Shown: positions 1 through 17,176 of the stretch, in pieces
How the letters are laid out: every line of letters starts with the position of its first letter
How positions within the stretch are numbered: position 1 is the first letter of the stretch
Assembly: GCA_004348925.1 (NCBI GenBank)
Contig: RCMX01000006.1
Coordinates: 315,493 to 355,917, forward strand
From: Actinomycetota bacterium
Lineage (GTDB): Bacteria; Actinomycetota; Coriobacteriia; Anaerosomatales; Anaerosomataceae
Direction of reading: 5' to 3'
DNA: 40,425 bases
The notes under the pieces: generated by a model
What the model saw: the letters and a program-made list of their open reading frames with translations, nothing else
The model's database searches: none
Told to the model about the DNA's origin: nothing
Position numbers and translations under genes: made by a program

Positions 1-160
1 CCTCGAGGTGCCACACGTCATCCCACAACTGCTTGGCTTCAACCGGCGTGGGAAGCCCGCCGTACTTGCCGAGCTCATCGATGGCGGTGGCGAATCGCTG
101 ATACACCGCGATCCGGGAGGGTCGTCCCCGAGGCGCTCGGCCAGCAGGTGAGTTTGTCAT
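1..160 (-). CDS. Unrecognised protein, N-terminal 53 residues (cut by the left edge)
   Basis: The frame is open from an ATG at 160 to the window edge, with a GAGGGGG ribosome-binding site 4-5 bases upstream. The visible residues begin MTNSPAGRAPRGRPSRIAVY and continue with an acidic, Trp-containing stretch. The basic start followed by a helical region could suit a DNA-binding or mobile-element accessory protein, but I do not recognise the family. It is divergent from the sigma-factor gene and belongs to cassette E0. Confidence 0.55.
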   Translation of the reverse strand, partial: MTNSPAGRAPRGRPSRIAVYQRFATAIDELGKYGGLPTPVEAKQLWDDVWHLE

Positions 161-179
161 CGTGCCCCCTCAGAAAGGT

Positions 180-239
180 AACAACGACAATCTATCAAAT
201 TGTCACCGGTGGCGCCACATAAACTCACAACGACAAATC
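180..239. promoter_or_regulatory. Divergent control region with twin CAACGACAA repeats
   Basis: Two near-identical direct repeats (ACAACGACAATC near 181 and ACAACGACAAATC near 227) flank a perfect GTGGCGCCAC palindrome near 209. They lie just upstream of the leftward gene at 1-160 and far upstream of the sigma-factor gene. This arrangement suggests an operator, but the binding protein is unknown. Confidence 0.35.
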
Positions 240-395
240 GGAGGCCAGCGGCGGGAGACGACTCGATGGGCGATACTGCACCAAGGCACATCCACATCGC
301 CGGACGCGATTGATCAACTCCTCAAACACAATCGCCCCTGCCGGACACTTAGCGGGTGTCAGGCAACATACAAGTCCGGCAAGGAGGTTCACTGC

Positions 396-998
396 ATGGC
401 GCACCATCCCCCACCGCAAGCAGCGCGCTTTGACGAGCTGTTCGCGGCGTATAGCGCACAGATCTTCGCGTACTGCCGAATGCGCTCCCGTTCTGTGGTC
501 GACGCTGAGGATGCCTTGGCCGAGGTCTTCCTGGTCGCATGGCGCCGACTCGATGACATTCCCGGGGGCGACGCTGCTCGCGCATGGCTGTACGCCACCG
601 CACGCCGCGTGACGGCCAACCAGCTCCGTTCCGCCAGACGTTCGGCGAGCTTGCTCGAACGAGTGTCCGTTTGGCGCGACGACCGCGCCGCTTACGATTT
701 CGCCGATACTGACGAAACGTCCGAGCTGGTCCACGAAGGCCTCAAGCGCCTGAAGCCGATCGACCGCGAGGTGCTCCTTCTGGCCGAGTGGGAGCAGCTG
801 TCCTCGGTCGAGATCGCAACCGTGACCGGTTGCTCGGACACTGCGGCTCGCGGTCGCCTGCATCGTGCCCGCAGACGCTTCCGTGAAGCGTTCGAGTACG
901 TCTCGGCCCGCCGGATGCAGGCCGCAATGGCACACTCACTCGATCTGACCGATTCACTCACTCTCGCCGGCGAAGCACTCGGCGAGATTCACGACTGA
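396..998 (+). CDS. ECF-type RNA polymerase sigma factor
   Basis: This 200-residue protein has the layout of a group 4 sigma factor. Region 2 is near residues 10-60 (FDELFAAYSAQIFAY, DAEDALAEVFLVAWRRL) and region 4 near 125-175 (LKPIDREVLLLAEWEQLSSVEIA, then the helix-turn-helix ending RGRLHRARRRF). It should direct RNA polymerase to a small set of promoters. I chose ATG 396 because a strong AAGGAGG lies 8 bases upstream and the protein then has normal length; the frame stays open upstream to 162 but without family-like sequence. The membrane protein beginning 12 bases downstream is the likely partner. The stimulus is not visible. Confidence 0.9.
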   Translation: MAHHPPPQAARFDELFAAYSAQIFAYCRMRSRSVVDAEDALAEVFLVAWRRLDDIPGGDAARAWLYATARRVTANQLRSARRSASLLERVSVWRDDRAAYDFADTDETSELVHEGLKRLKPIDREVLLLAEWEQLSSVEIATVTGCSDTAARGRLHRARRRFREAFEYVSARRMQAAMAHSLDLTDSLTLAGEALGEIHD

Positions 999-1009
999 AG
1001 GAGCGCGAC

Positions 1010-2020
1010 ATGACTGAAAACAGCATGCAGGCATTGCGAGACGCTGACCCGCGGAAGACTAGGCCAGCCTCGGTGGACTTCACGGCCATTCGCGACCGAA
1101 TCGTCTCCTCGCCAGCAGTTGAGACAGCACGGCAGAGCGAGCCGCGGCGCTGGAGACCCGCGGGCGTCAGGGGGCTCGCGATCTCGGCTCTCAGCGTTGG
1201 AGCTCTCGCTGTGGCAGTGATGTTCGGCGCGTTCGGCTCACTCGGTCAGCCAAGCACGCAGTCCGCATACGCGGCGGTGGCACAAGCGGTCGCCAAGACC
1301 GTTGAGCTTGGCACCTCAGGCACCATCGTCACGGGCCTACAAGCGAAGAGGTCAGATGGCAAGGCCGAGGTGCCCGATCCCGACGTGCCGACCCACGATG
1401 CTGCCGCCGCGGGCCTGGGCTCGACCTTCAAGTGGAGTGGCGACAACTTCGAGCTCAGCGGCCCACGCAATCTTCGCCTGGTGGACGGCGAGTTGTACGG
1501 ACTCACTGACGATCAGTGGTGGCTTATCGGCGCGCTCGGCAGTGCACCCGCCGCCGGCGGCGTTGGGAGCGGGGTGGACGACTGGCTCGCAAGCTCCAAG
1601 CGCGCATACGATCCCGAGCGCCTTGGCGAGCTGGCGGAACGTCTCGATGGCCTCGTGACAGAGAGCCGGGAAGACGGCGCGACCATCTATACGGGCAAGA
1701 CCACCGTGCGGGTGATCCGCGAGTGCTTCAGCAAGGGCTACTCCGCTGACAGCAACGACGTTGTGGGCATGATGCTGCCGAGCAACATCTCCCCCGATAC
1801 GCAGATCGACGTACAACTTGTGGTGGGTGCCGACGGCAGCCTGTCTGAGTGGACCGGAAGCTACACCGCAAGAGGCGCCGACTTCATCCTTGCGCCGGTG
1901 GGTACTAACGGCTCCGCGGGCTATCAGTTCCCCGACGTGGACTACGACTTCGTGTTCACCGCCACGTACAAGGACATCGGTTCGACGTCAGCGATTGAGA
2001 AGCCCGTTGTCGTCGAGTAG
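1010..2020 (+). CDS. Membrane protein paired with the sigma factor, possible anti-sigma factor
   Basis: The gene starts 12 bases after the sigma factor stops, behind GAAGGAGCG, so the two are probably co-transcribed. The 336-residue product has a cytoplasmic N-terminus of about 53 residues, one membrane segment near residues 54-77 (GLAISALSVGALAVAVMFGA) and a long outer domain rich in Gly, Asp and Val. This resembles the actinobacterial CU044_5270-type proteins encoded next to ECF sigma genes. I see no HxxxCxxC zinc anti-sigma motif, so direct binding of the sigma factor is inferred from layout only. Confidence 0.65.
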   Translation: MTENSMQALRDADPRKTRPASVDFTAIRDRIVSSPAVETARQSEPRRWRPAGVRGLAISALSVGALAVAVMFGAFGSLGQPSTQSAYAAVAQAVAKTVELGTSGTIVTGLQAKRSDGKAEVPDPDVPTHDAAAAGLGSTFKWSGDNFELSGPRNLRLVDGELYGLTDDQWWLIGALGSAPAAGGVGSGVDDWLASSKRAYDPERLGELAERLDGLVTESREDGATIYTGKTTVRVIRECFSKGYSADSNDVVGMMLPSNISPDTQIDVQLVVGADGSLSEWTGSYTARGADFILAPVGTNGSAGYQFPDVDYDFVFTATYKDIGSTSAIEKPVVVE

Positions 2021-2221
2021 CCGGACGTCGCGCTGAGCATGTAGATCGATATCAAGAGGTGCCGCAGGATCAGGACCTCGCCTTCTTCGAGCAGGACTCG
2101 GAGGGGCGAGGTCTCCCCTATGTGGGATGCCGTACTCGGGGACTAGCGAACCGCATGCATCCGGCCGACGAGGCGCGCGAAGCCTAGCAGCCAGAAGAAA
2201 GAGGAGAGCAACGGGAGCATC

Positions 2222-2242
2222 GGGCAACAAGTCGGGCAACAA
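2222..2242 (+). repeat. Two iterated GGGCAACAA motifs at the right inner boundary of E0
   Basis: GGGCAACAA occurs at 2222-2230 and again at 2234-2242, a 12-bp step. The same pair stands at 12764-12784 before the end of E2. GGGCGACAA pairs stand at the opposite inner boundary of E1 and E4. They mark where conserved terminal sequence gives way to cargo. Confidence 0.6.
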
Positions 2243-2265
2243 CTCAGCCGACAGCCGATTCTCGA

Positions 2266-2412
2266 CAACAGGGACTGCTATTGGGCCGCATCGAGACATC
2301 GGCACCCACTCTGAGCTGCCCTTTGCCCCGCGCCCGGCCTCAGCCCGAAGACAATTGTAGCCCGATTTCGCACTCGAAATCGGGCTACTCAGGCCTGTGG
2401 CCTGCGGAAACT
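2266..2412 (+). repeat. Cassette terminal block, copy 1
   Basis: This 147-bp block runs from CAACAGGG to the base before the att core. It shares order and sequence with blocks at 8936, 12808, 19554 and 26674: GGCCGCAT, CTCTGAGCTGC-like, CCCGATTTC, then GACCTGCGG or close variants. It contains a perfect 12-bp hairpin at 2359-2386 (AGCCCGATTTCG, loop CACT). By position it is the arm of the attachment site opposite the palindrome. Confidence 0.8.
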
Positions 2413-2438
2413 TGGTGCCCCCAAGGGAATTCGAATCC
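2413..2438 (+). other. att core 1: 26-bp copy of the tRNA-Glu 3' end
   Basis: The 26 bases are identical to 26816-26841, the CCA end, acceptor strand and part of the T arm of tRNA-Glu on the minus strand. No D arm or anticodon arm follows, so this is not a tRNA gene. It is the crossover region expected when an element integrates into a tRNA 3' end and restores it. Confidence 0.88.
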
Positions 2439-2449
2439 CGATAGTGCTT

Positions 2450-2533
2450 GTGACTATTGGGACTACTTGGGACTCGTTGGTACTCAAGAGCTGCGGTGAG
2501 TCCCAATAGATACCAACGAGTACCAACAGTCAC
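2450..2533. repeat. 84-bp phased inverted repeat, copy 1
   Basis: Two 37-base arms (2450-2486 and 2497-2533) flank a 10-base centre, AGAGCTGCGG. Each arm carries three TTGG-containing units spaced exactly 10 bp apart; the right arm has them inverted as CCAA. About 27 of 37 arm positions pair. It starts 11 bp after the att core, as in copies 2-4. One-turn spacing places all sites on one face of the helix, which suggests cooperative binding by a recombinase or accessory protein. Confidence 0.85.
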
Positions 2534-2542
2534 CATGTATTT

Positions 2543-2563
2543 GGGCGACAAATTGGGCGACAA
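2543..2563 (+). repeat. Paired GGGCGACAA motifs at the left inner end of E1
   Basis: GGGCGACAA lies at 2543-2551 and 2555-2563. The pair recurs at 19833-19853 in E4, and single copies lie at 9214 (E2) and 13087 (E3). Sequence similarity among the cassettes stops just after these motifs. Confidence 0.65.
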
Positions 2564-2603
2564 ATCCGGGGCGCTCCGATCCGAGACGAGAATGGAGCCG
2601 CGC

Positions 2604-2634
2604 TTGCCTTCTTTGTGATTAATCATATAATCAC
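2604..2634 (+). promoter_or_regulatory. Promoter with overlapping palindrome upstream of the Fic gene
   Basis: A consensus -10 TATAAT at 2626-2631 lies 16 bp downstream of TTGCCT (2604-2609). The -10 is embedded in an inverted repeat at 2615-2634 with perfect GTGATTA/TAATCAC arms. A repressor bound there would block the promoter, so autoregulation or control by a cognate antitoxin is plausible. Confidence 0.6.
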
Positions 2635-2671
2635 GTTAGTGTTTCGCGCTTCAATCAGAAAGGCTGTCACC

Positions 2672-3859
2672 GTGTACCGTTACGAGACTACAGAGATCGT
2701 CGCCACAGGCGTCCGACGGATCGAAGAGCTCCGCGCCCGCCTGGATGCGCAGGGGCCGCTCCCCCGGATCTGGCTCGGCCGGACTCGGCGCGACCTTGAG
2801 GCCGAAGCCGTAGCCGCCTCCACGATCATGGAGGGTGTGGCGGTCACCGTCGACGAGGCCCGCAGGATCCTGGCAGGCGACCGGCCCACCGGCATCTCGG
2901 CCGAAGACATCGGTCTGGTGGACGGCTACCGGAATGCGATGCGCTTCGTGCTCGCTCGCGCCGACGCGGATGCGTTCCAGTGGCAGAGCGAGCTTGTGCT
3001 GTCGCTGCACCACCTCGTGCTCGGCGGTTCGTATGCCAAGGGCGCGGGCCGGTTCAGGGAGACCCAGAACTGGCTCACGAACAGGGCGAGTGGCGCACAG
3101 GTCTACCTGCCCCCTCCCGCCGATGAAGTGCCGTCGCTCGTGGACGGCCTCATGGCGTGGCTCCAAAGAACGGATGAATCCGGGCCGGTGGCGTCGGCGC
3201 TCGCGCACGTGTCGGTGGCGGGCATCCACCCGTTTACGGATGGCAACGGCCGTACGGCGCGTATCGTCGCGTCGCTTGCGATGTATCGCGCCGGGTTCCG
3301 GCTGCCGCAGTTCACCAGCCTCGAGGAGTGGTGGGGACGTCACCTCGAGGACTACTGCTCCGCGTTCGACTGTCTCGGAACGGAGTGGGCACCTGATTCG
3401 GACGTCACCCCGTTCCTCGAGGCCCACGTACAGGCGCAGGTCGCCCAGGTGGAGGCTCTCTCGCTGCGCAACACCACCGAACGCGCTCTGTGGACGGTGC
3501 TGCAGGACGCGGCCGTGAGCGACATGGGCCTGAACGAACGCGCCACGCATGCGCTCTACGACGCCTTCTTCGCGCGCGAGGTCACCAACCGCTACTACCG
3601 TGGCATGGCGGACGTTTCCGAGGTGACCGCCTCACACGATCTGGGCAAACTCGTTGCCTCAGGCGCCCTCCAGGCCAGAGGGGCCGGAAGAAGCGCGCAC
3701 TACGTAGCTGCGCCAGCGCTCTACGAGCTTGTGGTACAGCACGCCGAACTCGATCCGCGATGGCTCGGCACGCCGGGGGACAACGTCGCCCAGCGGGACG
3801 CTGTTCTCATGGGGCTTGCGAATCGCCTGCATGCGGCCGGCGCCGCATCGGTGGTCTGA
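2672..3859 (+). CDS. Fic-domain protein, probable AMP-transferase with built-in inhibitory motif
   Basis: Fic enzymes usually transfer AMP from ATP to a hydroxyl side chain of a target protein. The full active-site motif HPFTDGNGRTAR is at residues 186-197 (catalytic His186), within a protein of 395 residues. Near the N-terminus STIMEG (residues 50-55) matches the (S/T)xxxE(G/N) inhibitory motif of class II Fic proteins, which keeps activity low until relieved. The C-terminal third looks like a winged-helix region. I chose GTG 2672 because AGAAAGG lies 8 bases upstream and the -10 box overlaps the earlier possible start at 2615. Targets are unknown; a regulatory or toxin-like role is possible. 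Confidence 0.88.
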   Translation: MYRYETTEIVATGVRRIEELRARLDAQGPLPRIWLGRTRRDLEAEAVAASTIMEGVAVTVDEARRILAGDRPTGISAEDIGLVDGYRNAMRFVLARADADAFQWQSELVLSLHHLVLGGSYAKGAGRFRETQNWLTNRASGAQVYLPPPADEVPSLVDGLMAWLQRTDESGPVASALAHVSVAGIHPFTDGNGRTARIVASLAMYRAGFRLPQFTSLEEWWGRHLEDYCSAFDCLGTEWAPDSDVTPFLEAHVQAQVAQVEALSLRNTTERALWTVLQDAAVSDMGLNERATHALYDAFFAREVTNRYYRGMADVSEVTASHDLGKLVASGALQARGAGRSAHYVAAPALYELVVQHAELDPRWLGTPGDNVAQRDAVLMGLANRLHAAGAASVV

Positions 3860-3992
3860 GCGGACGCCGGGCCCGGGGGCATCGGAGTCACACTCCTTCA
3901 TCGGATGCAGTCTGCGTGACCGCCCTGCCAGGCACCGGTGGCCGGTGTCGGACGCGCTTGCACCCCCCAACCGACGCCCATCACGCTCTTGC

Positions 3993-4709
3993 TCAGGCGA
4001 GCCACACCAGATACGCGGCGGCTACCAACAATCCCACGCCGCCGATCCTCGTGAGCACGCCGGTCGCGCGCGAGAGCTTGGTCATCACGACAAGGGATCC
4101 CGACGCGAGCCCCAGGAGCACCAGTGGCGCGCCCTTCCCCATCCCGAATACGAAGAGAAGCGCTGCACCTTGGACGGCCGAGCCCCGGGCGGCCGCGATC
4201 GTCCCGATGGCCGCAAGGATCGGCGTCGAGCAGGGAGAGGCGACGACGCCGAACAGCATGCCGAACAAGAACGCTCCAAGGTACCCGCGGCGCTCGGGCC
4301 TCCTGCTCGGCACGAACCGGTTGACGGCGTCGAACCGCAGGTTGATGACGCCCAGCATGTGGAGTCCGAGGACCAGGCAGATCGCAGCTACCACGTAGTA
4401 GGCCCACCACGCGATGAAGAGCGCCCGGCCGAGCGCGCCTGCTGCCGCACCGATCGCGGCGAACAGGAGGCTCATCCCCATGACGAACGCCCCGGCGAGC
4501 GATAGGGAACGCAGGTACGTGCGCCCGCGCGAGTCCGTGGCACCCTCAGAGCCCACGGTGCCGGTGAGGTAGCCGAACACCGCCGGCAGCATCGGCAGCA
4601 CGCAGGGGCCGAAGCCCGCCACCAGTCCACCGAGGAGCGCGATACCGAACGCGGCCGGCCCGGTCACGGCGCCTGCCGCAAGCTGACGTGCGAGTTCGTC
4701 CACGTTCAT
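3993..4709 (-). CDS. ccdA: CcdA/DsbD-type membrane thiol-disulfide transporter
   Basis: CcdA-family proteins carry reducing equivalents from cytoplasmic thioredoxin across the membrane. This 238-residue protein has about six membrane segments and the two hallmark cysteines: Cys36 in GFGPCVLPMLP and Cys160 in VASPCSTPI. The ATG at 4709 overlaps the stop of the upstream thioredoxin gene as TGATG, showing translational coupling. It ends a three-gene leftward operon of small thioredoxin, anchored thioredoxin and CcdA. The natural reading is that CcdA reduces the anchored thioredoxin outside the membrane. The final substrate is not evident; cytochrome c maturation is less likely without haem genes nearby. 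Confidence 0.88.
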   Translation of the reverse strand: MNVDELARQLAAGAVTGPAAFGIALLGGLVAGFGPCVLPMLPAVFGYLTGTVGSEGATDSRGRTYLRSLSLAGAFVMGMSLLFAAIGAAAGALGRALFIAWWAYYVVAAICLVLGLHMLGVINLRFDAVNRFVPSRRPERRGYLGAFLFGMLFGVVASPCSTPILAAIGTIAAARGSAVQGAALLFVFGMGKGAPLVLLGLASGSLVVMTKLSRATGVLTRIGGVGLLVAAAYLVWLA

Positions 4710-5182
4710 CACTCCGCCAGTAGCGCGTCGAGGTACTGCCGCACACCGGCGGCGTCGAGCTTGCCTGTATACGAGTGGAGGACCGTGCCGTCCGTGCGGA
4801 TGAAGTACGACGTGGGCACGAACTGGAACGAGAACCGCTTGGCGAGCTCCTGCCCGGCGGGCTCGTCCGTCATCACGTGCAGGTAGACGACCTCGTCCTC
4901 GTACTCGGGCATGACCTGCTGGACCGACTTCTCCATCTCCGCGCAGTTGTCGCAGTACGACAGACCGAAGTTGAGGAAGACGGGCCGTCCATCGTCGAGC
5001 GCCCTCTCGAAGGCTTCCACCGGGTCCTCCGTGGCGCCAGCGGCAAGACCTGTCCCACCCGCCGTGGCAGCTCCTGGCGCAGCGGGATCCGGAGCCGAGC
5101 TGCCGAGCTTGACCACGACCAGAACGGCGAACGCCGCCGCCACGCCGACAAGGACGAGCGTCTTCGATCTACGCGTCGGCAT
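4709..5182 (-). CDS. Membrane-anchored thioredoxin-like protein
   Basis: The 157-residue protein has a membrane anchor near residues 9-25, an Ala/Gly/Pro linker, then a thioredoxin fold with CDNC (Cys77, Cys80). The later stretch QFVPTSYFI contains the conserved cis-proline region (VPT). The catalytic domain should face outside. It overlaps the upstream small thioredoxin gene by 14 bases and the downstream ccdA by one. Likely role: a thiol-disulfide reductase kept reduced by CcdA, perhaps protecting thiols during metal or oxidative stress; the target is inferred, not seen. Confidence 0.85.
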   Translation of the reverse strand: MPTRRSKTLVLVGVAAAFAVLVVVKLGSSAPDPAAPGAATAGGTGLAAGATEDPVEAFERALDDGRPVFLNFGLSYCDNCAEMEKSVQQVMPEYEDEVVYLHVMTDEPAGQELAKRFSFQFVPTSYFIRTDGTVLHSYTGKLDAAGVRQYLDALLAE

Positions 5183-5411
5183 CGAGCATCCTCCTCAGTT
5201 CCTCGGCCGAGGGCACGCGTCCGGACGCTGCCACCCGCCCGTCGATCACCAGCCCTGGAAGCGCCACCACGCCGGTCTCCATGATGCCGGCCGGGTCTGT
5301 GACCTTCTTGATGTCTGCGGCGACGCCGATCTCACCCATGATCCGCCGAACCGCCGCCTCGAGTTCACGACAGGTCGGGCAGCTCGCCGAGCCCACCAGT
5401 TGGACGATCAT
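5169..5411 (-). CDS. Small thioredoxin-family protein (redox-active disulfide protein type)
   Basis: The 80-residue protein starts MIVQLVGSASCPTC with the redox pair Cys11/Cys14, and has the conserved proline at VVALPGLVIDG. This is the layout of the MTH895/TM0996-type mini-thioredoxins. I start it at ATG 5411 behind AAAGGTGGT; the frame upstream adds 39 residues without family likeness. It opens the redox operon with the anchored thioredoxin and CcdA. Mini-thioredoxins often sit with CcdA-like or metal/metalloid permease genes. Confidence 0.82.
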   Translation of the reverse strand: MIVQLVGSASCPTCRELEAAVRRIMGEIGVAADIKKVTDPAGIMETGVVALPGLVIDGRVAASGRVPSAEELRRMLDADA

Positions 5412-5451
5412 GCCGGCACCACCTTTCGACGCAGACGGAGCGGCCCTGCAC

Positions 5452-5498
5452 CGGACCATAGTCCGAACGATCGGGAGCGCTCCTTGACTCCGGTCAAG
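5452..5498 (-). promoter_or_regulatory. Palindromes in the leader of the redox operon
   Basis: Two inverted repeats lie upstream of the small thioredoxin start: CGGAC-CATA-GTCCG (5452-5465) and CTTGAC-TCCG-GTCAAG (5483-5498). They are candidate operators for the leftward operon. The second resembles operators of thiol- or metal-responsive regulators, but that is only a likeness. Confidence 0.4.
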
Positions 5499-5545
5499 AC
5501 CATCGTCGCTTGACAGGAGCCGACACATGGCGTTTACTTCTCACA

Positions 5546-5571
5546 TGATAATCATTTACTACTGATAATCA
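5546..5571 (+). promoter_or_regulatory. Twin TGATAATCA boxes before the MarR gene
   Basis: TGATAATCA occurs at 5546-5554 and 5563-5571, 17 bp apart. Each is a near-perfect palindrome and the AT-rich stretch stands out in GC-rich DNA. The second box ends 11 bases before the MarR start codon. Likely an operator, perhaps for the MarR protein itself; likeness to Fur/DtxR-type boxes keeps an iron or metal regulator possible. Confidence 0.6.
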
Positions 5572-5582
5572 AGGAACTTCCA

Positions 5583-6137
5583 ATGCCGCCCCGCTCTGAA
5601 CGCCTCTCGCACCTGATGCCGTTGCTCCAGCATGCGACCTCGCATCTCGGCGCCCTGTCGACCGAATCCGGCCGTTCGTTCTCCCTGTCGAACTCGCGCA
5701 TGGCGGTGCTGTCCACGCTCATGCAGCGTGGGCGGCTTCGGATGTCGGATCTTGCCGAGCTGCTGGACCTGCCCCGCCCGCTCGCCACGAGGACCGTCAA
5801 CGAACTCGTGGCGAGAGGGCTGCTCGAGCGCTGCGACGATCCGTCGGATCGGCGGATCGTCCTGGTGCAGCCCACCGAAGCGGGGCGCACGGTCTACGAG
5901 GACGTGCAGCGCGAGTCCGCAACGGCGCTCGAGGGCGTCCTCGGCGACATGACGGCAGACGAGGCGGACGCCCTGCTCGCTGGACTCGAGGCGCTGCTCG
6001 AGGCGCTGCACAAGCCGGGCCGCGGCCGCAGGTGCTGCGGGCCCGACGACCCCGATGGGCATCACGACGCGCACACGAGCCAACCAGGTTGCGTGCACGC
6101 ACAGTCAGTACACCCTGTTGAGAGGAGCCAGCCATGA
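5583..6137 (+). CDS. MarR-family regulator with Cys/His-rich tail, candidate metal sensor
   Basis: A winged helix-turn-helix covers roughly residues 35-105 (RMSDLAELLDLPRPLATRTVNELVARGLLER, then the wing DPSDRRIVLV). MarR proteins are dimeric repressors released by ligands. Beyond the usual domain a tail of about 40 residues includes GRRCCGPDDPDGHHDAH and a further Cys and several His, which could bind metal. AAGGAACT lies 5 bases before the start. Its last codons overlap the HMA gene (ATGA), linking regulator and metal handling in one operon. Metal sensing is inference. Confidence 0.85.
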   Translation: MPPRSERLSHLMPLLQHATSHLGALSTESGRSFSLSNSRMAVLSTLMQRGRLRMSDLAELLDLPRPLATRTVNELVARGLLERCDDPSDRRIVLVQPTEAGRTVYEDVQRESATALEGVLGDMTADEADALLAGLEALLEALHKPGRGRRCCGPDDPDGHHDAHTSQPGCVHAQSVHPVERSQP

Positions 6138-6370
6138 CCGAGACCGCCGCCCTGAAGGAGACCGTCCTGCGTTCCGACGAGCTTACGTGTCCCTCCTGCA
6201 TCGCCAAGATCGAGGCGAAGCTCACCAGCCTCGATGGCGTCGCCTCAGCCGAGGTGAAGTTCGCCTCCGGGAGGATCGTGGTTCAGCATGACCCGTCGAA
6301 GGTGTCCGTCGGCGACCTGGTGAAGGCCGTCAGGGAGATCGGCTATGCGGCCAAGCCGTCTGCGATCTAG
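6134..6370 (+). CDS. Heavy-metal-associated (HMA) domain protein
   Basis: This 78-residue protein is a single ferredoxin-like metal-binding domain of the CopZ/MerP type, with the site LTCPSC near residues 18-23. Such proteins carry soft metal ions to a P-type ATPase. It overlaps the MarR gene by four bases and is followed by the ATPase after a hairpin. The ATPase lacks its own N-terminal HMA domain, so this protein probably supplies that function in trans. Confidence 0.88.
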   Translation: MTETAALKETVLRSDELTCPSCIAKIEAKLTSLDGVASAEVKFASGRIVVQHDPSKVSVGDLVKAVREIGYAAKPSAI

Positions 6371-6386
6371 TCACGCCACGTCCGGT

Positions 6387-6419
6387 GGACCCCGGGTGAG
6401 AGCGCTGAGCCCGGGGTCC
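6387..6419 (+). terminator. Hairpin between the HMA gene and the ATPase gene
   Basis: A perfect 10-bp stem GGACCCCGGG/CCCGGGGTCC with a 13-base loop is followed by TTCTC. It could be a terminator or partial attenuator that makes the small HMA protein more abundant than the ATPase. Confidence 0.6.
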
Positions 6420-6442
6420 TTCTCACACCAAGGGGTGACGAC

Positions 6443-8293
6443 ATGAAGCGAGCATGGAACGACTGGGGCATCGTCATCGCCTCCGGCCTCCTGATCGCCC
6501 TCTCCTGGGCAACGGGCCAGGAGTGGCTGATGATCGGGGCGGCCGTGGTCGCGGGCTATCGGATAGCCATCACCGCCGTGCAGGCGCTGCGCGTACGCAA
6601 CGTCTCGATCGACCTGCTCGTCACCGTCGCCGCAGTGGGCGCCCTCTTCATCCACAACTACTGGGAGTCCGCCGCGGTCACCTTCCTCTTCGCACTCGGC
6701 AAGGGGCTTGAGCGGGCGACGCTCAACAAGACCCGCAAGGCGCTCTCGGACCTGGTGGATGCGGCGCCGGAGACGGCGACCGTCATGCGAGACGGCGTGC
6801 CGGTGACCGTCGAGGTGTGGGAGCTCGCTCCCGGCGACATCGTGCTGGTGCGCAACGGCGAGCAGGTTCCGGTGGACGGCCGCGTCGTGACCGGCCATGG
6901 CGGCGTGGACGAAGCCACCATCACCGGAGAGTCCCTGCCCGCCGAGAAGGCCCAGGGCTCCGAGACGTTCGCGGGCACGTGGCTGCGATCGGGTGTCCTG
7001 CAGATCGAGGCCGTGAACATCGGTCCCGACACCACGCTCGCGAAGATCATCCACCGGGTGGAAGAGGCTCAGGACGATAAGGCGAAGACCCAGACGTTCC
7101 TGGAGAGGTTCTCGCGCTGGTATACCCCCGGAGTGATCGTCACATCCGTGCTCGTCGGCCTCGTCACCCGCGATATCGAACTCGCGTTGACACTGCTCGT
7201 GATCAGCTGCCCCGGCGCGCTCGTGATCTCCATCCCCGTCTCCATCGTGGCCGGCATCGGCCGCTCGGCCAAAGACGGCGTGCTCATCAAGGGCGGCGAG
7301 TATCTCGAGACCTCGGCGAAGGTGGATGCCATCGTGGTCGACAAGACCGGCACGCTGACGAACGGCCGCCCAGAGCTCACGGACGTGGTCGTGTTGGATC
7401 CGGCGTACACCGAGGCCGACGTGCTGCGCCTTGCGGCGCGCGCTGAGACCGCCTCCGAGCATCCGCTTGCCGATGCCATCATCCGCGGCGCCAAGGAGCG
7501 TGGACTGCAGGTCGTCATGGCGGAGAAGTCCGAGCCTATCGCCGGCAAGGGCATCCGCACGCACGTGGAAGGCCGCACGGTGGCCGTGGGGTCGGCGGAC
7601 CTGCTCGACGCGCGCCCGGACGACGCGCATGTCGCGGCCTTCAACGAGCACGGCAAGACCGCGATGTACGTTGGTGTGGACGGCGCAGCGATCGGCATCG
7701 TTGCGGTCGCTGACACCATCCGCAACGACGCCGCCGCGGCGATCAAGGCGCTCCACGCACGGGGGGTGAAGGTCATCATGGCCACCGGCGACGCACGGCG
7801 GGTGGCAGAGAGTGTCGCCGCGCAACTCGGTGTCGATATCGTCCACGCGGAGCTGATGCCGGAAGACAAACTGGCGATCGTCAAGGGCCTTCAGGCCGAG
7901 GGCTACACCGTGGCCATGGTCGGCGACGGCGTGAATGACACGCCAGCGCTGGCGCAAGCGGACATCGGCGTTGCGATGGGCGCCGCCGGATCGCCGGCTG
8001 CCATCGAGACGGCGGATATCGCGCTCATGGCCGACGACCTGCCGCGCCTCCCCTACGCGCTGGGACTCGCGCAGCGGACGGTCCGTACGATGCGCGTCAA
8101 CATCGGGATCGCGCTCGTGGTCGTGGCAACGCTGCTGGCGGGCGTCCTCTTCGGGGGCGTCACGATGTCCATCGGCATGCTCGTCCACGAGGCGTCGGTC
8201 ATGCTGGTGATCGGCATCGCCATGCTGCTGCTACGCCCGACGCTGAAGAAGGAGCCGGTGGGTGCTGCCGCGGTTCCTTCCCCCATCGCGTGA
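6443..8293 (+). CDS. Heavy-metal P1B-type ATPase with a CPG membrane motif
   Basis: Metal-exporting P-type ATPase of 616 residues. Visible are TITGES, the phosphorylation site DKTGTLTNG (Asp300), the SEHPLA motif typical of P1B pumps and GDGVNDTPALAQADI. The membrane motif before the catalytic domain reads SCPGALVISIP (Cys256-Pro-Gly258), where most P1B pumps have CPC, CPH or SPC. That leaves one membrane cysteine and makes the metal hard to predict. There is no N-terminal HMA domain; the preceding gene encodes one separately. AAGGGG lies about 9 bases upstream of the start. Confidence 0.9.
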   Translation: MKRAWNDWGIVIASGLLIALSWATGQEWLMIGAAVVAGYRIAITAVQALRVRNVSIDLLVTVAAVGALFIHNYWESAAVTFLFALGKGLERATLNKTRKALSDLVDAAPETATVMRDGVPVTVEVWELAPGDIVLVRNGEQVPVDGRVVTGHGGVDEATITGESLPAEKAQGSETFAGTWLRSGVLQIEAVNIGPDTTLAKIIHRVEEAQDDKAKTQTFLERFSRWYTPGVIVTSVLVGLVTRDIELALTLLVISCPGALVISIPVSIVAGIGRSAKDGVLIKGGEYLETSAKVDAIVVDKTGTLTNGRPELTDVVVLDPAYTEADVLRLAARAETASEHPLADAIIRGAKERGLQVVMAEKSEPIAGKGIRTHVEGRTVAVGSADLLDARPDDAHVAAFNEHGKTAMYVGVDGAAIGIVAVADTIRNDAAAAIKALHARGVKVIMATGDARRVAESVAAQLGVDIVHAELMPEDKLAIVKGLQAEGYTVAMVGDGVNDTPALAQADIGVAMGAAGSPAAIETADIALMADDLPRLPYALGLAQRTVRTMRVNIGIALVVVATLLAGVLFGGVTMSIGMLVHEASVMLVIGIAMLLLRPTLKKEPVGAAAVPSPIA

Positions 8294-8342
8294 TCCGTCA
8301 ATGACATCGTGATGCACGAACGACAGGTCTTGTCGGTCGCTC

Positions 8343-8873
8343 GTGTCGGGCGGGCAGGTGGACTCGCTGATCGCAGTGCCCGCATTCGTGCTCGACTTCC
8401 TGTGCATCCACCCGTTCTCCGACGGCAACGGGCGGATGTCGCGCATCCTGAACCTCATGCTCCTGTACCAGGCCGGCGATGATGTCGGCCGTTACATCAG
8501 CCTCGAGAAGGTCATCGAGGACTCGAAGGCGACGTACTACGAGGCACCCGAAGCCTCGTCGGGCGGAGGGCACGAGGACCGACACGATCTCGTTCCCTGG
8601 CTTCAGTACTCGCACGGCGTTCTCATCGCAGCGTACGTTGAGTTCGAGCAGCGAGTCGGGCAGATGGGGACAGGGCGCGGGGCGAAGCGCGACATGGTGA
8701 TCGACTGCATCCGGCACATCCCGGCGACCTTCCGGTATGCCGACGTCGAGCGAGCCTGTCCGGGGGTGAGCCGTCCCATGATCGTTCGCGTGCTCGGCGA
8801 GCTTCGAGACAAGGGTGAGATCAGGTGCACGAAGGGCGGGCGCGACGCGACGTGGGAGCGAACGACTCAGTGA
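8343..8873 (+). pseudogene. Truncated Fic-domain gene
   Basis: The frame holds the Fic active-site motif HPFSDGNGRMSR only about 23 residues from its first possible start, then 140 residues including a winged-helix-like tail. The helices that normally precede the motif are missing. The frame is open only from 8313, after a TGA, with no ATG and no ribosome-binding site. It is not a copy of the intact Fic gene at 2672. It looks like the 3' remnant of a gene cut when cassette material was joined. Confidence 0.7.
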
Positions 8874-8935
8874 GTCGTTAACGATATCATCCGTGGGCTC
8901 TCTGATTCGTTTGGGGAACTGCGGGCACTCATCAG

Positions 8936-9083
8936 CAACAGGGAGTGCTGCTGGGCCGCATGAAGGCGCCGACACCGCCTCTGAGCAGCACCTTTGCCGC
9001 GCGCCCGCTCTCAGCCCGAAGACATCTGTAGCCCGATCTCACACTCGAAATCGGGCTACTCAGGCCTTTGACCTGCGGTCTTA
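8936..9083 (+). repeat. Cassette terminal block, copy 2
   Basis: The block at the right end of E1 runs from CAACAGGG to the att core. The hairpin at 9030-9057 keeps its outer stem but has changed bases near the loop (CCCGATCTC against GAAATCGGG). Confidence 0.8.
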
Positions 9084-9109
9084 TGGTGCCCCCAAGGGAA
9101 TTCGAATCC
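9084..9109 (+). other. att core 2: 26-bp copy of the tRNA-Glu 3' end
   Basis: Identical over 26 bases to the tRNA-Glu 3' end at 26816-26841. The next bases, TGATTGTGCTT, match copy 3 and differ from copies 1 and 4 (CGATAGTGCTT), hinting at two cassette lineages. Confidence 0.88.
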
Positions 9110-9120
9110 TGATTGTGCTT

Positions 9121-9204
9121 GTGACTATTGGGACCTATTGGGACTCGTTGGTACAGCGGAGCTGCGGCGAGTCCCAATAGGTACCAACGAGTACCAACAG
9201 TCAC
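9121..9204. repeat. 84-bp phased inverted repeat, copy 2
   Basis: Same length and distance (11 bp) from the core as the other copies. It is the most divergent copy, with changes in the left arm and centre, yet the TTGG and CCAA steps keep their 10-bp phasing. Confidence 0.82.
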
Positions 9205-9251
9205 CATGTATTTGGGCGACAAATCGGGCAGCGAGTTGTCCGCCGCTAGCC

Positions 9252-10673
9252 CTACGTGAGGAGCCGCGCACGACGAAGTAGGCTCGCATCTTCCAGTACT
9301 TCACACGAGGGCCCGTCCGCAATCACTCGGCCGTCGGCCAGCACTACGCAACGATTGGAGAGCCGGGCGGCGAAACGCACATCATGTGTGACGAGCAATA
9401 CGCCAGCGCCATCATCAAGTCGTCGCTCAACCGCAGACACGACGGTCTCTGCAGCATCGGCGTCGAGTGCCTTTGTGGGTTCATCGAGCACGATGAGACG
9501 GGGCTCCGCCACAAGAACCGAGGCGAACGCCACCAACTGTCGCTCAGAGGCAGTGATTTCGTGGGGGTTCTCCTTCGCCAACCTGTCGATGGCTAGCTCC
9601 ACCATGACCGCATGCGCCCGCTCAACGGCTGCGTCCCGAGCGATTCCTCGAGCGATGAGACTCCACGCGACCTCGATCTCCACCAGTCTGTTGAACACTT
9701 GATCGTCGGGATTCTGAAAGAGAAGTCCTACATCGCGCGCCAAGTCCCAGATCTCACAGTCACTCGCATCCTTGTCGAGCACCCACACGTCACCCGAATC
9801 AGGTCGGAGCAGGCCGATGGTGTGCTTCATGATCGTCGTCTTGCCGGCGCCGTTCGGGCCGAGAAGGGCGACCGACTCCCCTTCACGCACGCTGAGATCG
9901 ACGTCCTCGACACCACCGCCGGAGCCATACCGGTGGGTGAGATTACGTATCTCCAGGAGCAGGCCCCCCAGGGGGCGGGCTGCGGGCCGACACGCGATCC
10001 TCGGCCCAGCATCATCAAGGTGGGGAACACCCGCGACAAGATGAAGCCGCTGTGCGCCCTCCGGCACGTGCTCGGCCTCGCGGGTGGCAATGAACACCGT
10101 CGTCCCAAGGGCGGCCTGCCGGCGTGCGAGTCCAAGAACCTCATCGGCCGATGCAGGATCGAGCTGTTCGAAGGGCTCGTCCAGAAGCAGCACGTCTGGA
10201 TCGACCGCGAGAGCCGCCGCAACTGCAACCTTCTGACGCTCACCACCGGAGAGCGTGTGCATCAAACGAGCCTCGAGATGCGCGATGTCGACCACTTCGA
10301 GCGCACCTCGAACTGCCGGTTCCAGTTCGTCCTCCGACACCCCGCGGTTGGCCAGCGGAAAGGCAATCTCGTCGAAGACGGTGCGAAACAGATAGACGCC
10401 CGAGTCCTGCAATACCATCGACGGAGTGGCCGCAGTCCCCGTGCCGACCCCGACGACATCCAGTCGTCCCGTCAGCTTGCCCTCGATCACCGTGGGCACA
10501 ACACCCGCAATGATCTCCAGGAGAGTACTCTTCCCCGCCGCATTCGGCCCGGTTATCCAGTTCTCGGAGCCGGGGGTGGCGACGAAGTTGATGCCTGCGA
10601 TTGCCGCAGTACGAGTACCCGCGTACGTGAAGCCGACTCCCTCGGCTGTGACGCGTGCGCCGCGGTCAGTCAT
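9252..10673 (-). CDS. ECF-type transporter ATPase, two nucleotide-binding domains in one chain
   Basis: A fused EcfA-like ATPase of 473 residues. Domain 1 has Walker A GPNAAGKST (42-50), signature LSGGERQ (141-147) and VLLLDEP, but the switch position reads IATRE, with Arg198 where His is usual. Domain 2 has GPNGAGKTT (272-280), a weak signature ITASERQ (373-379), VLDEPT and a normal THD (His430). One composite ATP site is therefore likely degenerate. ATG 10673 overlaps the stop of the EcfT gene (ATGA). Together with EcfT and the S component this makes a complete ECF uptake system. Confidence 0.9.
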   Translation of the reverse strand: MTDRGARVTAEGVGFTYAGTRTAAIAGINFVATPGSENWITGPNAAGKSTLLEIIAGVVPTVIEGKLTGRLDVVGVGTGTAATPSMVLQDSGVYLFRTVFDEIAFPLANRGVSEDELEPAVRGALEVVDIAHLEARLMHTLSGGERQKVAVAAALAVDPDVLLLDEPFEQLDPASADEVLGLARRQAALGTTVFIATREAEHVPEGAQRLHLVAGVPHLDDAGPRIACRPAARPLGGLLLEIRNLTHRYGSGGGVEDVDLSVREGESVALLGPNGAGKTTIMKHTIGLLRPDSGDVWVLDKDASDCEIWDLARDVGLLFQNPDDQVFNRLVEIEVAWSLIARGIARDAAVERAHAVMVELAIDRLAKENPHEITASERQLVAFASVLVAEPRLIVLDEPTKALDADAAETVVSAVERRLDDGAGVLLVTHDVRFAARLSNRCVVLADGRVIADGPSCEVLEDASLLRRARLLT

Positions 10674-11440
10674 CGGAGCACCAGCCGAGTCGTTGCGACA
10701 ACCACAATCCAGAGCACGCCCAGTGCATAGCACGCTACGGCTCCCGAGGTCACCTTGCGCTGTGGCTTCACCCTACGGCTGGAGCCGTACCCTCGGACAT
10801 GGAGCAGAACAGCCATGCCGTAGGCGCGCACGAGTGACTTCACGATGACGGGGATTAACACGGCGAGGTAGGCGCGCATCTTGCGCACAAGGTTCCCACC
10901 CATGGCCATCCCGCGGGCCTGCTGTGCCTGGATGGTGGTATCCATCTGCTGCTTCATCACAGGCAGCACACTGAGCGTGAGCGAGACCATGATGCCAAGA
11001 TCCTCGTTCACATCTCCGGCCCACCGTATGATCGCGAGCGGCCCCGTTGACAGCAGCAGCAGATACATGACGGAGACGAACCCGAGGAGGCGGATGACGA
11101 TAAGGAGTCCGGCGAGAAAGCCTTGGACGCCGAAGATCCACACGTGCTCGGTCGAGCTGGGATATGCCCATGAGTAGATGACCAGCAAAGAGAGCGAGAC
11201 CCAGGCAACGCCCCTCCAACTCCGCACGAGAGGTATGAGAAGCCTTGTGGCGGTTGCCGCCACAAGGAGCACGAGCAGCTGAGCTCCGAGACCCGGAATC
11301 GTCGGTGTCAGTGCCACAGCGAGAATCCCACAGGCGGCGAGGAACATCCGCGGGCCGACGGGGACGACCCGTAGCCCTATCGGATGCGGAAGGGCCCCCG
11401 GCTCGAACGCCGGGAGCCCTCCTGTCACATTAGCGGACAC
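10670..11440 (-). CDS. ECF transporter transmembrane coupling protein (EcfT)
   Basis: This 256-residue membrane protein is mostly hydrophobic in its first two thirds, then has the cytoplasmic stretch with QARGMAMGG and a further helix, matching EcfT coupling helices that carry Ala-Arg-Gly signatures (QQARG). EcfT links the ATPase to the substrate-binding S component. It lies between the two in one leftward operon, with a four-base overlap to the ATPase. GTG 11440 is the start with the longest fit but has only a weak ribosome-binding site; a later start near 11347 is possible. Confidence 0.85.
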   Translation of the reverse strand: MSANVTGGLPAFEPGALPHPIGLRVVPVGPRMFLAACGILAVALTPTIPGLGAQLLVLLVAATATRLLIPLVRSWRGVAWVSLSLLVIYSWAYPSSTEHVWIFGVQGFLAGLLIVIRLLGFVSVMYLLLLSTGPLAIIRWAGDVNEDLGIMVSLTLSVLPVMKQQMDTTIQAQQARGMAMGGNLVRKMRAYLAVLIPVIVKSLVRAYGMAVLLHVRGYGSSRRVKPQRKVTSGAVACYALGVLWIVVVATTRLVLR

Positions 11441-11464
11441 GAGCTTCTAAACGCATGTCGAGAG

Positions 11465-12025
11465 CTACGCTTCTTCCGGGCCCGCGGCGAAGCCCTTCAG
11501 CGTTTTCGGAAGCGCCATGATCACAAACATCACCACGAAGACCGAGAGCAGCTTATCGACCAGGTTCGAACCGATCCTGGGTATGAACGCGGCCGTGAAC
11601 ACGTCGGCACCGGCCTTCATGAGTCCGCCGACGAAGATGTCGAGCCCGCCGCCGGTGAGCCCACCGTATACATACGTCGCAATTGTGGTACCGATGATCG
11701 GCGCCACGACAGAGACGATGAGACCTGCGATGAGCACGACAAGCCACTTCTGGAACCCGAACTTGACGGAGATGAAGCCTACGATGAGGCCAACGGCGAT
11801 GTTGACGATTGCGAACCACATATCCATCGGGTTCTGGAGAGCCATGATGATGTTCGTCAGACCCCCCGTAAGCGCTCCCCACCATGGGCCGAGTATCGCC
11901 GCGGAGAGAATCGTACCGATCGTATCGAGGAATACGGGCAACTTGAGCGAGCTGGCAAGCAGCCCACCAATCACGTTGATCCCGATTCCCACCGGTACGA
12001 ACACGAGTGCGATGCGCTTGTTCAA
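11465..12025 (-). CDS. ECF transporter substrate-binding S component, CD3073-like
   Basis: This 186-residue protein has about six membrane helices. Its start (MNKRIALVFVPVGIGINVIG) and LDTIGTILSAAILGPWWGALTG resemble, from memory, the Clostridioides CD3073 family of S components. The S component sets substrate specificity. The start is TTG 12025 with AGGAGG 7 bases upstream. It leads the operon S-T-A and faces a divergent TudS-like gene, as CD3073 sits beside CD3072, so the substrate may be a sulfur-containing small molecule. The exact substrate is unknown. Confidence 0.8.
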   Translation of the reverse strand: MNKRIALVFVPVGIGINVIGGLLASSLKLPVFLDTIGTILSAAILGPWWGALTGGLTNIIMALQNPMDMWFAIVNIAVGLIVGFISVKFGFQKWLVVLIAGLIVSVVAPIIGTTIATYVYGGLTGGGLDIFVGGLMKAGADVFTAAFIPRIGSNLVDKLLSVFVVMFVIMALPKTLKGFAAGPEEA

Positions 12026-12172
12026 TGCAGGCCTCCTTCTTCACCAGATGCCGGTCGGTCGACATGCATGACCGTGCGCTCAAGGTATCATCCTGCTTGA
12101 TGGTTGTCATCAGGAATGTCAATCTGAATCGTCAAGTGGAATCCTTTCGGTAGCCACGAGGAGATGATCGAG

Positions 12173-12754
12173 ATGACCACAGAAGATGCGGGCCGAAACC
12201 CGGTGGATTCCAGGAGTCGCAGAATCGTCTTCGTGTGCCACTGCCTGCTGAACGCGAACTCGAAGGTAGAAGGTCTCGCCCAGTACGCGGGAGTGCACCC
12301 GTTGATCACGCAGCTGGCCGCCCTCGGCATCGGGATTATTCAGATGCCCTGTGCTGAGATGGGATCATGCGGCATGAGTAGGTGGGGTCAGACTCGAGAG
12401 CAGTACGAGAATGTCGCATTCCGCGGGCTATGTGCCCGGCTCTCCGATGAGACCCTCGCACAGGTTCATGAGTATCGGCGCTGCGGGTACGAGATCCTTG
12501 GTGTCGTGGGGGTCGACGGGAGCCCGACCTGTGGCGTGGCAAATTCGGCTTCGGGCCACTGGGGCGGTGAATACGCGCCTGCGGAATGGGCGGAGGTCGT
12601 GTCCAGTGTTGAATCCGCGCCGCTGCCTGGAGTGCATATCGAGGCTCTCTTTGAGCGACTTGAGCCTCTCGGCATACGCTTCTTCGCGATTGACGAGAGC
12701 GTCGAGGGCCATCACGTCGACGAGGTGATCCGGGGGCTCACGGCGACGGAGTAG
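12173..12754 (+). CDS. TudS-related putative desulfidase (CD3072-like)
   Basis: The 193-residue protein carries conserved cysteine motifs: VCHCLLNANSKVEG near the start, MPCAEMGSCGM in the middle and DGSPTCGV further on. This is the pattern of DUF523/TudS-like proteins, where thiouracil desulfidase uses an iron-sulfur cluster to remove sulfur from thiolated compounds. I start at ATG 12173, 9 bases after GAGGAG; ATG 12164 would sit directly against that site. It is divergent from the ECF operon. Import of a thio-compound followed by desulfuration is the natural joint model. Confidence 0.8.
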   Translation: MTTEDAGRNPVDSRSRRIVFVCHCLLNANSKVEGLAQYAGVHPLITQLAALGIGIIQMPCAEMGSCGMSRWGQTREQYENVAFRGLCARLSDETLAQVHEYRRCGYEILGVVGVDGSPTCGVANSASGHWGGEYAPAEWAEVVSSVESAPLPGVHIEALFERLEPLGIRFFAIDESVEGHHVDEVIRGLTATE

Positions 12755-12763
12755 CTGCACAAC

Positions 12764-12784
12764 GGGCAACAAATCGGGCAACAA
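12764..12784 (+). repeat. Paired GGGCAACAA motifs at the right inner end of E2
   Basis: Copies at 12764-12772 and 12776-12784, 12 bp apart, begin 9 bases after the desulfidase stop codon. They match the pair at 2222-2242. Confidence 0.6.
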
Positions 12785-12807
12785 CTCAGTCGAGCGCCGA
12801 TTCTGGA

Positions 12808-12956
12808 CAAAAGGGACTGCTATTTGGCCGCATGAGGGCATCTACACCCCCTCTGAGCTGCGCCTTTACCCCGCGCCCGCTCTCAGCCCAAAGACATTTG
12901 TAGCCCGATTTCACGCTCGAAATCGGGCCACTCAGGCACTCTGACCTGCGGTCTTA
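12808..12956 (+). repeat. Cassette terminal block, copy 3
   Basis: 149 bp similar to copy 1, including the extended CAACTCAG flank. The hairpin at 12902-12929 keeps CCCGATTTC/GAAATCGGG. Confidence 0.8.
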
Positions 12957-12982
12957 TGGTGCCCCCAAGGGAATTCGAATCC
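12957..12982 (+). other. att core 3: 26-bp copy of the tRNA-Glu 3' end
   Basis: Identical over 26 bases to 26816-26841. Flanking bases match copy 2. Confidence 0.88.
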
Positions 12983-12993
12983 TGATTGTGCTT

Positions 12994-13077
12994 GTGACTA
13001 TTGGGACTACTTGGGACTCGTTGGTACTCAAGAGCTGCGGTGAGTCCCAATAGGTACCAACGAGTACCAACAGTCAC
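12994..13077. repeat. 84-bp phased inverted repeat, copy 3
   Basis: Almost identical to copy 4. About 28 of 37 arm positions are complementary and the three-by-three TTGG/CCAA pattern is intact. Confidence 0.85.
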
Positions 13078-13095
13078 CATGTATTTGGGCGACAA

Positions 13096-13442
13096 GCTAA
13101 CCCACAATTCGGGAGCTTGAGCCCTTGTCGAACGCGGCGCGTTTCACTACCTACTTTGGCCTTCGACGTTCGCCCACACAACGCTCAGATCTGTGAGTTC
13201 AAGCGCCAAGCGATGCTTCAAAATGTGACTTCTGTCAGGGACTTCAGCCGGACACGGTTGAGGGCCTTGCCGCGTTCTCTAGGGAGCGCCAGCTACCCGA
13301 CCGGCCGAGCACTTCTTCGAGCGAACGGCCCGAGTGGGGCAAGGGAAACATCAGCCATTGAGCATCGTGGCACGACCTGTGCTTCCAATCCTGATGAAAT
13401 GGGTAAGAATTAGAAGCACCGATTGAATCGAGGAAGGAATAC
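13096..13442. other. Gene-free stretch at the left end of E3
   Basis: About 350 bp between the palindrome and the first E3 gene. I see no coding frame with a ribosome-binding site and family-like sequence. It presumably holds the promoter of the small secreted protein gene, but no clear -35/-10 pair stands out. Confidence 0.4.
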
Positions 13443-13646
13443 ATGATGAAGACTCTAGCCGTCTTTGCTTTGGCAGCCGTTCTTGCGCTCGCACTTGCCG
13501 CTCCGGCGTTCGCCGCCACAGGTGCAGGTGGGGCGGGTGCAGCTTTCGGTCAGCACCATGCGATGCACGCCCAAGAAATGGGCGGTTTCACCGGTACAGA
13601 GAATCCTGGCATGCACCAGGGCTTCGCTGGTTGGACCGCACCGTAA
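13443..13646 (+). CDS. Small secreted His/Met-containing protein
   Basis: A 67-residue protein with a clear Sec signal peptide (MMKTLAVFALAAVLALALAAPAFA, cleavage after AFA). The mature part of about 43 residues includes QHHAMHAQEM and a second Met/His cluster, NPGMHQGF. Such residues bind copper or silver in periplasmic or extracellular chaperones. AGGAAGG precedes the ATG pair. It is convergent with the CopB-type ATPase gene, and a shared terminator lies between them. I know no named family. Confidence 0.7.
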   Translation: MMKTLAVFALAAVLALALAAPAFAATGAGGAGAAFGQHHAMHAQEMGGFTGTENPGMHQGFAGWTAP

Positions 13647-13667
13647 CATCGCACACACGCGGTTGCC

Positions 13668-13706
13668 GGCGCCCCGTTCCCGGAAAGGGACGGGGCGCCT
13701 TCTATT
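13668..13706. terminator. Bidirectional terminator
   Basis: A 14-bp stem (GGCGCCCCGTTCCC against AGGGACGGGGCGCC, one weak pair) is followed by TTCTATT on the plus strand. It separates the convergent small secreted protein and ATPase genes. Confidence 0.8.
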
Positions 13707-13744
13707 CTCGAGGTGTGCCGTCACCTGAACGCCAGGGAGGTTCT

Positions 13745-15775: not shown

Positions 15776-15778
15776 TCG

Positions 15779-16063: not shown

Positions 16064-16106
16064 GGTGTGCTCAACTCCTCTGACTGTCAGGTACCGACCC
16101 GGATGA

Positions 16107-16685: not shown

Positions 16686-16790
16686 GGTCCACCTTCCTTT
16701 GCCTTGGGATCCCGTTCAATGCGCTGCCGACGGGCCCATTTACGGCCATTACACCTGGCACGCCAACGCGCGGCGTCGCTGCGGCCCGGA

Positions 16791-17166: not shown

Positions 17167-17176
17167 CGGTCTCGAC

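Follow-up and report, generated by a model that had tools for sequence, protein, structure and literature searches.

The window analysed here, a stretch of 40,425 nucleotides from a member of the Anaerosomatales, contains four copies of an 84-bp palindromic block in which three TTGG units face three CCAA units, and the question is what such a block does and why it recurs. The original prediction, made from the sequence, saw an ordered protein array beside a crossover core. This fits the position of the block, at +37 to +120 from a 26-bp core (TGGTGCCCCCAAGGGAATTCGAATCC) whose sequence is that of the tRNA-Glu 3′ end in reverse complement; the attachment (att) site is of the phage type, and the 84-bp block forms part of its right (P′) arm. 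Judged from its sequence, the layout of core and arms is that of a tyrosine-integrase attP with the crossover inside the tRNA gene. Every att copy begins with the core, which is followed by the 3+3 TTGG block and then by 12-bp direct repeats. To the right of the core stands GTGCTTGTG, and beyond the block the 12-bp repeat (GGGCNNCAAAT) occurs at +130 and +142, with GGGCNNCAA at both positions in most copies. The 12-bp repeats also occur left of the core, at -56/-44 or -192/-180, and are candidate integrase arm-type sites. In most copies the core is preceded by a conserved left end of ~200 bp (present in 91 of 120 core copies), which comprises the 12-bp repeats, a terminator-like stem and GACCTGCGG at -14. 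The conserved unit is thus larger than 84 bp, comprising the ~200-bp left end, the core and ~155 bp rightward. The motif GA[GC]CTGCGG is found three times around the core, at -14 (88 copies), at +75, which is the centre of the TTGG block (82 copies), and at -102/-101 (48 copies); it is possibly the site of a third protein. Matching of the 12-bp repeat types (GA/AA/AC) between the two ends of an element was weak (22/44 against 16 expected, p 0.036).

The core is identical over 26/26 bp at eight places in the source genome (G000), namely seven att copies and tRNA-Glu itself, and direct repeats of a tRNA 3′ end at the borders are what a tRNA-targeting tyrosine-integrase element has. The four block copies originally listed are all real, but the genome has seven, in a single orientation on one contig (C1:304184, 311026, 314432, 317905, 324576, 328449 and 335195) and within 31 kb behind tRNA-Glu; the eighth place is the core alone, inside the tRNA gene. 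In the window, core and TTGG block lie on the + strand at 2413-2438 and 2450-2533 (att e4), 9084-9109 and 9121-9204 (e5), 12957-12982 and 12994-13077 (e6), and 19703-19728 and 19740-19823 (e7). In e4, TTGG starts at 2457, 2467 and 2477 and CCAA at 2503, 2513 and 2523, and the right arm continues at 2540-2567 (+) with two direct repeats of GGGCGACAAAT, again candidate integrase arm-type sites. The sequence immediately to the left (2213-2412, +) is the left end of cassette e3, with GGGCAACAA repeats, a GAGCTGC motif, a terminator-like stem and CTGTGGCCTGCGG beside the core. The tRNA-Glu (TTC) gene, identified by ARAGORN and Rfam, is located at 26816-26891 on the - strand; its 3′ end (26816-26841) is the core, presumed to be attB and the anchor of the array. 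Outside the window, the copy at C1:311026 has lost ~9 bp of its left arm, and in the copy at C1:314432 the third step reads ATGG.

The att copies of the source genome delimit seven recombinase-free cassettes of 3.4-7.1 kb with genes for metal transport, AbiE/Fic, ECF transport and a sigma factor, and no tyrosine recombinase was found in any interval of the array; being att-flanked and having neither integrase nor transfer genes, the cassettes have the make-up of CIMEs. The right part of cassette e3, which begins at -1060, occupies 1-2412 (+) and encodes a sigma-70 factor (162-998) and a protein without a Pfam match (1010-2020); its Fic gene lies mostly left of the window. Cassette e4 (2413-9083, +), annotated with Pfam and free of tyrosine recombinases, encodes Fic (2615-3859), a DsbD/CcdA-like protein (3993-4712), thioredoxins, MarR and HMA proteins, a P-type ATPase (6443-8293) and a Fic fragment (8343-8873). 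Cassette e5 (9084-12956, +) carries an ECF transporter made up of an ABC ATPase (9252-10733), a CbiQ-like protein (10670-11440) and an S component (11465-12025), and e6 (12957-19702, +) a P-type ATPase (13745-15775), a DUF305 protein (16107-16685) and an HMA protein (18296-18655). The tRNA-proximal cassette e7 (19703-26815, +), of which 99% is covered by a homologous cassette in another genome (G014), encodes cupredoxin proteins (19939-20589 and 20619-22121), a P-type ATPase (23449-25410), ArsR (25670-26044) and a C_GCAxxG_C_C protein (26076-26522). The cargo to the left of the window or across its edge comprises cation efflux, NlpC/P60 and cupredoxin proteins, AbiEi/AbiEii, Fic and a sigma factor. 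The interval G000:C1:311026-314432 is composite: its first 1.5 kb is a cassette that stands alone in other genomes, which suggests a fusion by loss of an internal att. Beside the leftmost att copy lies a terminator-like stem similar to what natively flanks tRNA-Glu in other genomes, and in three genomes with an empty site (G006, G016 and G020) the genes of both insertion flanks adjoin tRNA-Glu.

The regularity of the block was confirmed, with TTGG at +44/+54/+64 and the mirrored CCAA at +90/+100/+110 from the core start in all four window copies. It is not due to chance, because TTGGn6TTGGn6TTGG occurs 13 times in the whole 2.25-Mb genome, 12 of them inside att sites, and the reversed control pattern 0 times. 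In all, 72 distinct copies, all of the same length and taken from ~30 genomes, were compared for conservation and pairing. Mean conservation was 0.990 in the TTGG/CCAA columns and 0.865 in the other columns of the same units, a contrast that 0 of 20,000 permutations reached; substitutions thus spare the TTGG steps genome- and order-wide. The standard pattern is present in 56 of 92 full copies, and most of the others differ by single units or bases. Measured from the core, the block ends after 94, 104, 114 or 124 bp (or one more), i.e., units are gained or lost in 10-bp steps, with the caveat that slippage between 10-bp repeats can give 10-bp indels without selection. The number of units may differ between the arms (2+3, 3+2 and 4+3 versions), and 5 of the 92 copies are one base off the 10-bp register. 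A natural null variant, an att copy without any TTGG units (GTGACTATTCAATAGTCACC), exists at G056:C29:46901 (L127). The centre (GGAGCTGCGG), originally described as 10 bases around which the six sites lie, is itself conserved at ~0.97. The proposal that all six sites lie on one helical face was not supported: the innermost TTGG and CCAA start 26 bp apart, or ~2.5 helical turns, so that a single face is not established and each three-site arm is phased on its own.

Outside the TTGG units the dyad is not maintained either, as arm-to-arm pairing was 0.80 against 0.79 in column shuffles, the variable dyad pairs gave a normalised MI of at most 0.09, and several dyad positions are consistently mismatched. 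Given the absence of dyad covariation, two sets of direct repeats facing each other describe the dyad better than a stem does. This bears directly on the idea that the palindrome works as a folded single strand, an attC-like or oriT hairpin, in recombination or conjugation. The predicted single-strand folding is indeed strong (z -4.3 to -7.7), and an att end that doubled as oriT would suit cassettes that have no match to the region upstream of the relaxase in the conjugative element described below; however, the folding is explained by the block's own repeats, and pairing at the level of shuffles, mismatched dyad positions and arms of unequal length argue against it. The hairpin was accordingly rejected, and a function as a folded strand is very unlikely. 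A transcribed terminator or other RNA element is scarcely conceivable: the repeat follows the 3′ end of tRNA-Glu and folds well, but it has no T run after the stem and hence is not an intrinsic terminator, it has no Rfam match and no covariation between its arms, and what does resemble a terminator, the stem to the left of the core, is a different element.

The features of the block indicate instead that it would act as a phased protein array on duplex DNA, occupied by a directionality factor (RDF) or by the integrase at arm sites. The former is favoured because RDFs recognise direct repeats spaced by one helix turn (PMC7498355) and each RdfS monomer takes up 10 bp (PMC11963761), and the TTGG units, too, are direct repeats with a spacing of about one turn within an att arm. 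In the known RDF arrays (lambda Xis, 186 Apl and RdfS; PMC7498355, PMC11963761) head-to-tail sites likewise stand one helix turn apart on one side of the att core; unlike these, the block consists of two opposed triplets around a conserved GAGCTGCGG centre, and its binding protein is putative. That the TTGG units are the integrase's own arm-type sites, contacted by its N-terminal arm domain, is a less probable reading that nevertheless deserves serious consideration. IntS of ICEMlSymR7A has five P/arm sites with the consensus TGKTGGTATC (PMC11963761), close to the TGTTGGTACT unit, and because of this resemblance the integrase rather than an RDF may bind; the block is, moreover, common to the conjugative element and the cassettes. 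On the other hand, the TTGG units are confined to one arm, whereas the 12-bp repeats occur on either side of the core, the arrangement that integrase arm sites should have, and head-to-tail 10-bp steps are typical of RDFs. A search within the conjugative elements for further TTGG arrays that might serve as an RDF operator yielded scattered single matches only, most other matches being unmasked att copies; candidate small HTH genes are present in these elements.

The conjugative element is the likely source of the integrase. A full-length tyrosine integrase was found in eight genomes of the order, 88-96% identical to the copy in G024 and located directly at tRNA-Glu in 8/8, with a further partial copy in G002. 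In these eight genomes a cognate integrase thus stands at the border of the element; the cassettes of the source genome have none. Its C-terminus (LVPPREFESLLPP) is the tRNA-Glu core read antisense. In the G024 integrase (G024:C38:4991-6352, L071) and its homologues, KSGDKSGDKS precedes the C-terminal end and is encoded by the 12-bp arm repeats; since the end of the protein is encoded by the arm repeats and the tRNA-Glu core, its stop codon differs between the integrated and the circular state. In G004, G005, G014 and G021 the integrase ends an element of 45-53 kb with a MobP3 relaxase, VirD4, a VirB4-like protein, TrbL and ParA, identified by Pfam and NCBIfam in G014 and as homologues in the other three; in G014, MobP3 scored 172.7 bits (cut-off 150) and VirD4 CD1115 296.6 (250), the VirB4-like protein fell below its cut-off, and the integrase matched Phage_integrase. 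With a relaxase, a coupling protein, a T4SS ATPase and an integrase between defined ends, this element is, by predicted gene content, an ICE, and its end opposite the integrase carries the same TTGG arm as the cassettes. The full-length integrase is always tRNA-proximal, and this suggests that elements enter on the side of the tRNA. Among 62 intervals shorter than 44 kb, this integrase is present in one (9.9 kb, G045), and one other (39.7 kb) has a weak recombinase match; as 61 of the 62 are without this integrase, they do not conform to IMEs, which have their own. The integrase gene of the 9.9-kb element (G045:C36:47034-48377), counted among the eight full-length copies, contains an in-frame TGA. 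A 299-aa protein beside the integrase (G014:C1:77763-78662, L065) is conserved in the ICEs and in the 9.9-kb element; neither Pfam nor the PDB gave a relative, apart from a weak zinc-finger-like match at its C-terminus, and it is a possible recombination partner. Upstream of the MobP3 relaxase gene lies a conserved 38-bp inverted repeat (G014:C1:68071-68108) that is a candidate for the element's oriT; nothing in the cassettes matches the region that precedes the ICE relaxase.

The cassettes recur in other genomes. Between genomes that share 72-82% identity in the chromosomal gene purH, whole cassettes reach 87-97%: a 2.0-kb cassette is 94% identical in G035 and G039 (purH 73.5%) and a 3.9-kb cassette 94% identical in G052 and G056 (purH 77.8%), and a 1.5-kb AbiEii cassette is found in G000, G003, G012, G028, G041 and G044. 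The same cassettes recur end to end across different genera and families, and this identity, far above that of purH, implies that they move as att-bounded units. The sampled cargo is varied and includes metal ATPases and several defence-type families (AbiE, Fic and a restriction enzyme). In the relatives' cassettes shorter than 11 kb, 120 of 173 called genes have the same orientation as tRNA-Glu, genes in operons being non-independent, an orientation bias reminiscent of integron cassettes. The left end of the cassettes differs from the integrase end of the ICE but has the -14 motif in common with it, and two cassettes of G021 share ~1.1 kb with the ICE. The cassettes might also be regarded as dead remnants, CIMEs left by the decay of separate ICEs and no longer moving; such decay is the usual explanation of tandems of this kind (PMC5704250), and some copies are truncated. 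Yet the cassettes have a common left end of their own, unlike the ICE integrase end, and their end-to-end recurrence in several genera and families makes this explanation unlikely. In the source genome itself no copy of the ICE integrase was found (best match 36% identity, C1:739010), and its array may therefore now be inert and is probably silent unless an ICE arrives.

The att query was matched, at least in the tRNA core, by 67 of 99 related genomes, and ~30 have full sites, often several per contig; nearly all come from metagenome assembly, with several contigs ending at an att copy, so that array counts are lower bounds. Array-bearing genomes belong to the same order of subsurface bacteria, Anaerosomatales-type Coriobacteriia; some carry seven or eight cassettes, and truncated att copies exist in G056 and G017:C3. 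Among 84,980 species, the named matches to the att pattern are all Actinomycetota/Coriobacteriia MAGs, two of them labelled Anaerosomatales, and there was no match in phage, plasmid or viral-contig collections.

Beyond what was originally predicted, the att site punctuates a tRNA-anchored cassette array whose integrase is ICE-borne. It is highly probable, on this comparative evidence, that a tyrosine integrase targeting tRNA-Glu and supplied in trans by the ICE built the tandem array of recombinase-free cassettes, with the TTGG block in the P′ arm of its site. Repeated site-specific insertion at tRNA-Glu would build up small cassettes with complete attachment ends, the integrase being provided in trans by an ICE of ~45-53 kb of the same order that integrates at the same place with the same P′ arm. 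A cassette circle would contain the left arm with its 12-bp repeats, the tRNA core, the TTGG block and the right-hand 12-bp repeats; the ICE integrase would recombine tRNA-Glu with the core carried by a circular cassette or ICE, adding the unit beside the tRNA and regenerating its 3′ end. Integrase arm sites would be provided by the 12-bp repeats of both arms, and the TTGG block would be read as duplex, as two opposed sets of three ~10-bp sites with one monomer per turn, the triplets most likely loading an RDF, or else the integrase arm-binding domain. According to this model, the ICE integrase would act on the cassettes, which would circularise and be transferred by conjugation together with the ICE. 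Given that the cassettes have no ICE oriT region, passage between cells alongside an adjacent ICE would be the simplest route.

Several known systems share parts of this organisation. The Dehalococcoides ssrA islands (PMC3146451) likewise lie in tandem behind one RNA gene, with direct repeats of its 3′ end as borders, an integrase gene that overlaps att, adaptive cargo and 15 islands without an integration module; they differ in their target (ssrA), in the serine recombinases of 16 islands and in that the passages cited report no ICE carrier. By contrast, the integrase here belongs to the tyrosine family and is ICE-borne, and hardly any cassette contains a recombinase. In the ICE/CIME accretion described for ICESt1-related elements of Streptococcus (PMC5704250), recombinase-less att elements form tandems with an ICE or IME whose specificity is related; those CIMEs are described as decayed ICEs or IMEs, whereas the present cassettes bear on the left a conserved end of their own, reach seven or eight per genome in some cases and circulate as units throughout the order. 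Integrons and CALINs (PMC11389934) also consist of recombinase-less cassettes, with one site each, polarised from one anchor and mobilised in trans. Here, however, the anchor is tRNA-Glu and the att is a phage-type core with arms, read as duplex and not as a folded attC, for which dyad covariation is missing; and the integrase scored 28 bits with the integron integrase model TIGR02249 (cut-off 265). The array is, as far as its sequence tells, best classed as ICE/CIME accretion organised like an integron. Recombinase-less members of tandem islands at one RNA gene and recombinase-less cassette arrays (integrons) were already known; the novelty lies in the way they are combined here, with a shared cassette end, circulation throughout the order and an integrase borne by an ICE. 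Literature searches returned no report of this cassette system, and a term search of the paper describing the order (PMC9686372) found no mention of mobile elements.

It is tempting to speculate, with about even chances of being right, that the order maintains an integron-like exchange, in which a pool of recombinase-free cassettes with duplex, phage-type att sites would be loaded stepwise at one tRNA by the ICE integrase and spread by the ICE, the TTGG double triplet acting as their shared excision control. The ~90 natural variants of one att arm, among them 2+3, 3+3 and 4+3 versions, lend themselves directly to testing how recombination is controlled by phased sites. For an order of which few strains have been cultured, an integron-like cassette economy that would run on an ordinary tRNA att site and a conjugative element gives a route to reading the adaptive and defence genes that circulate in the Anaerosomatales.
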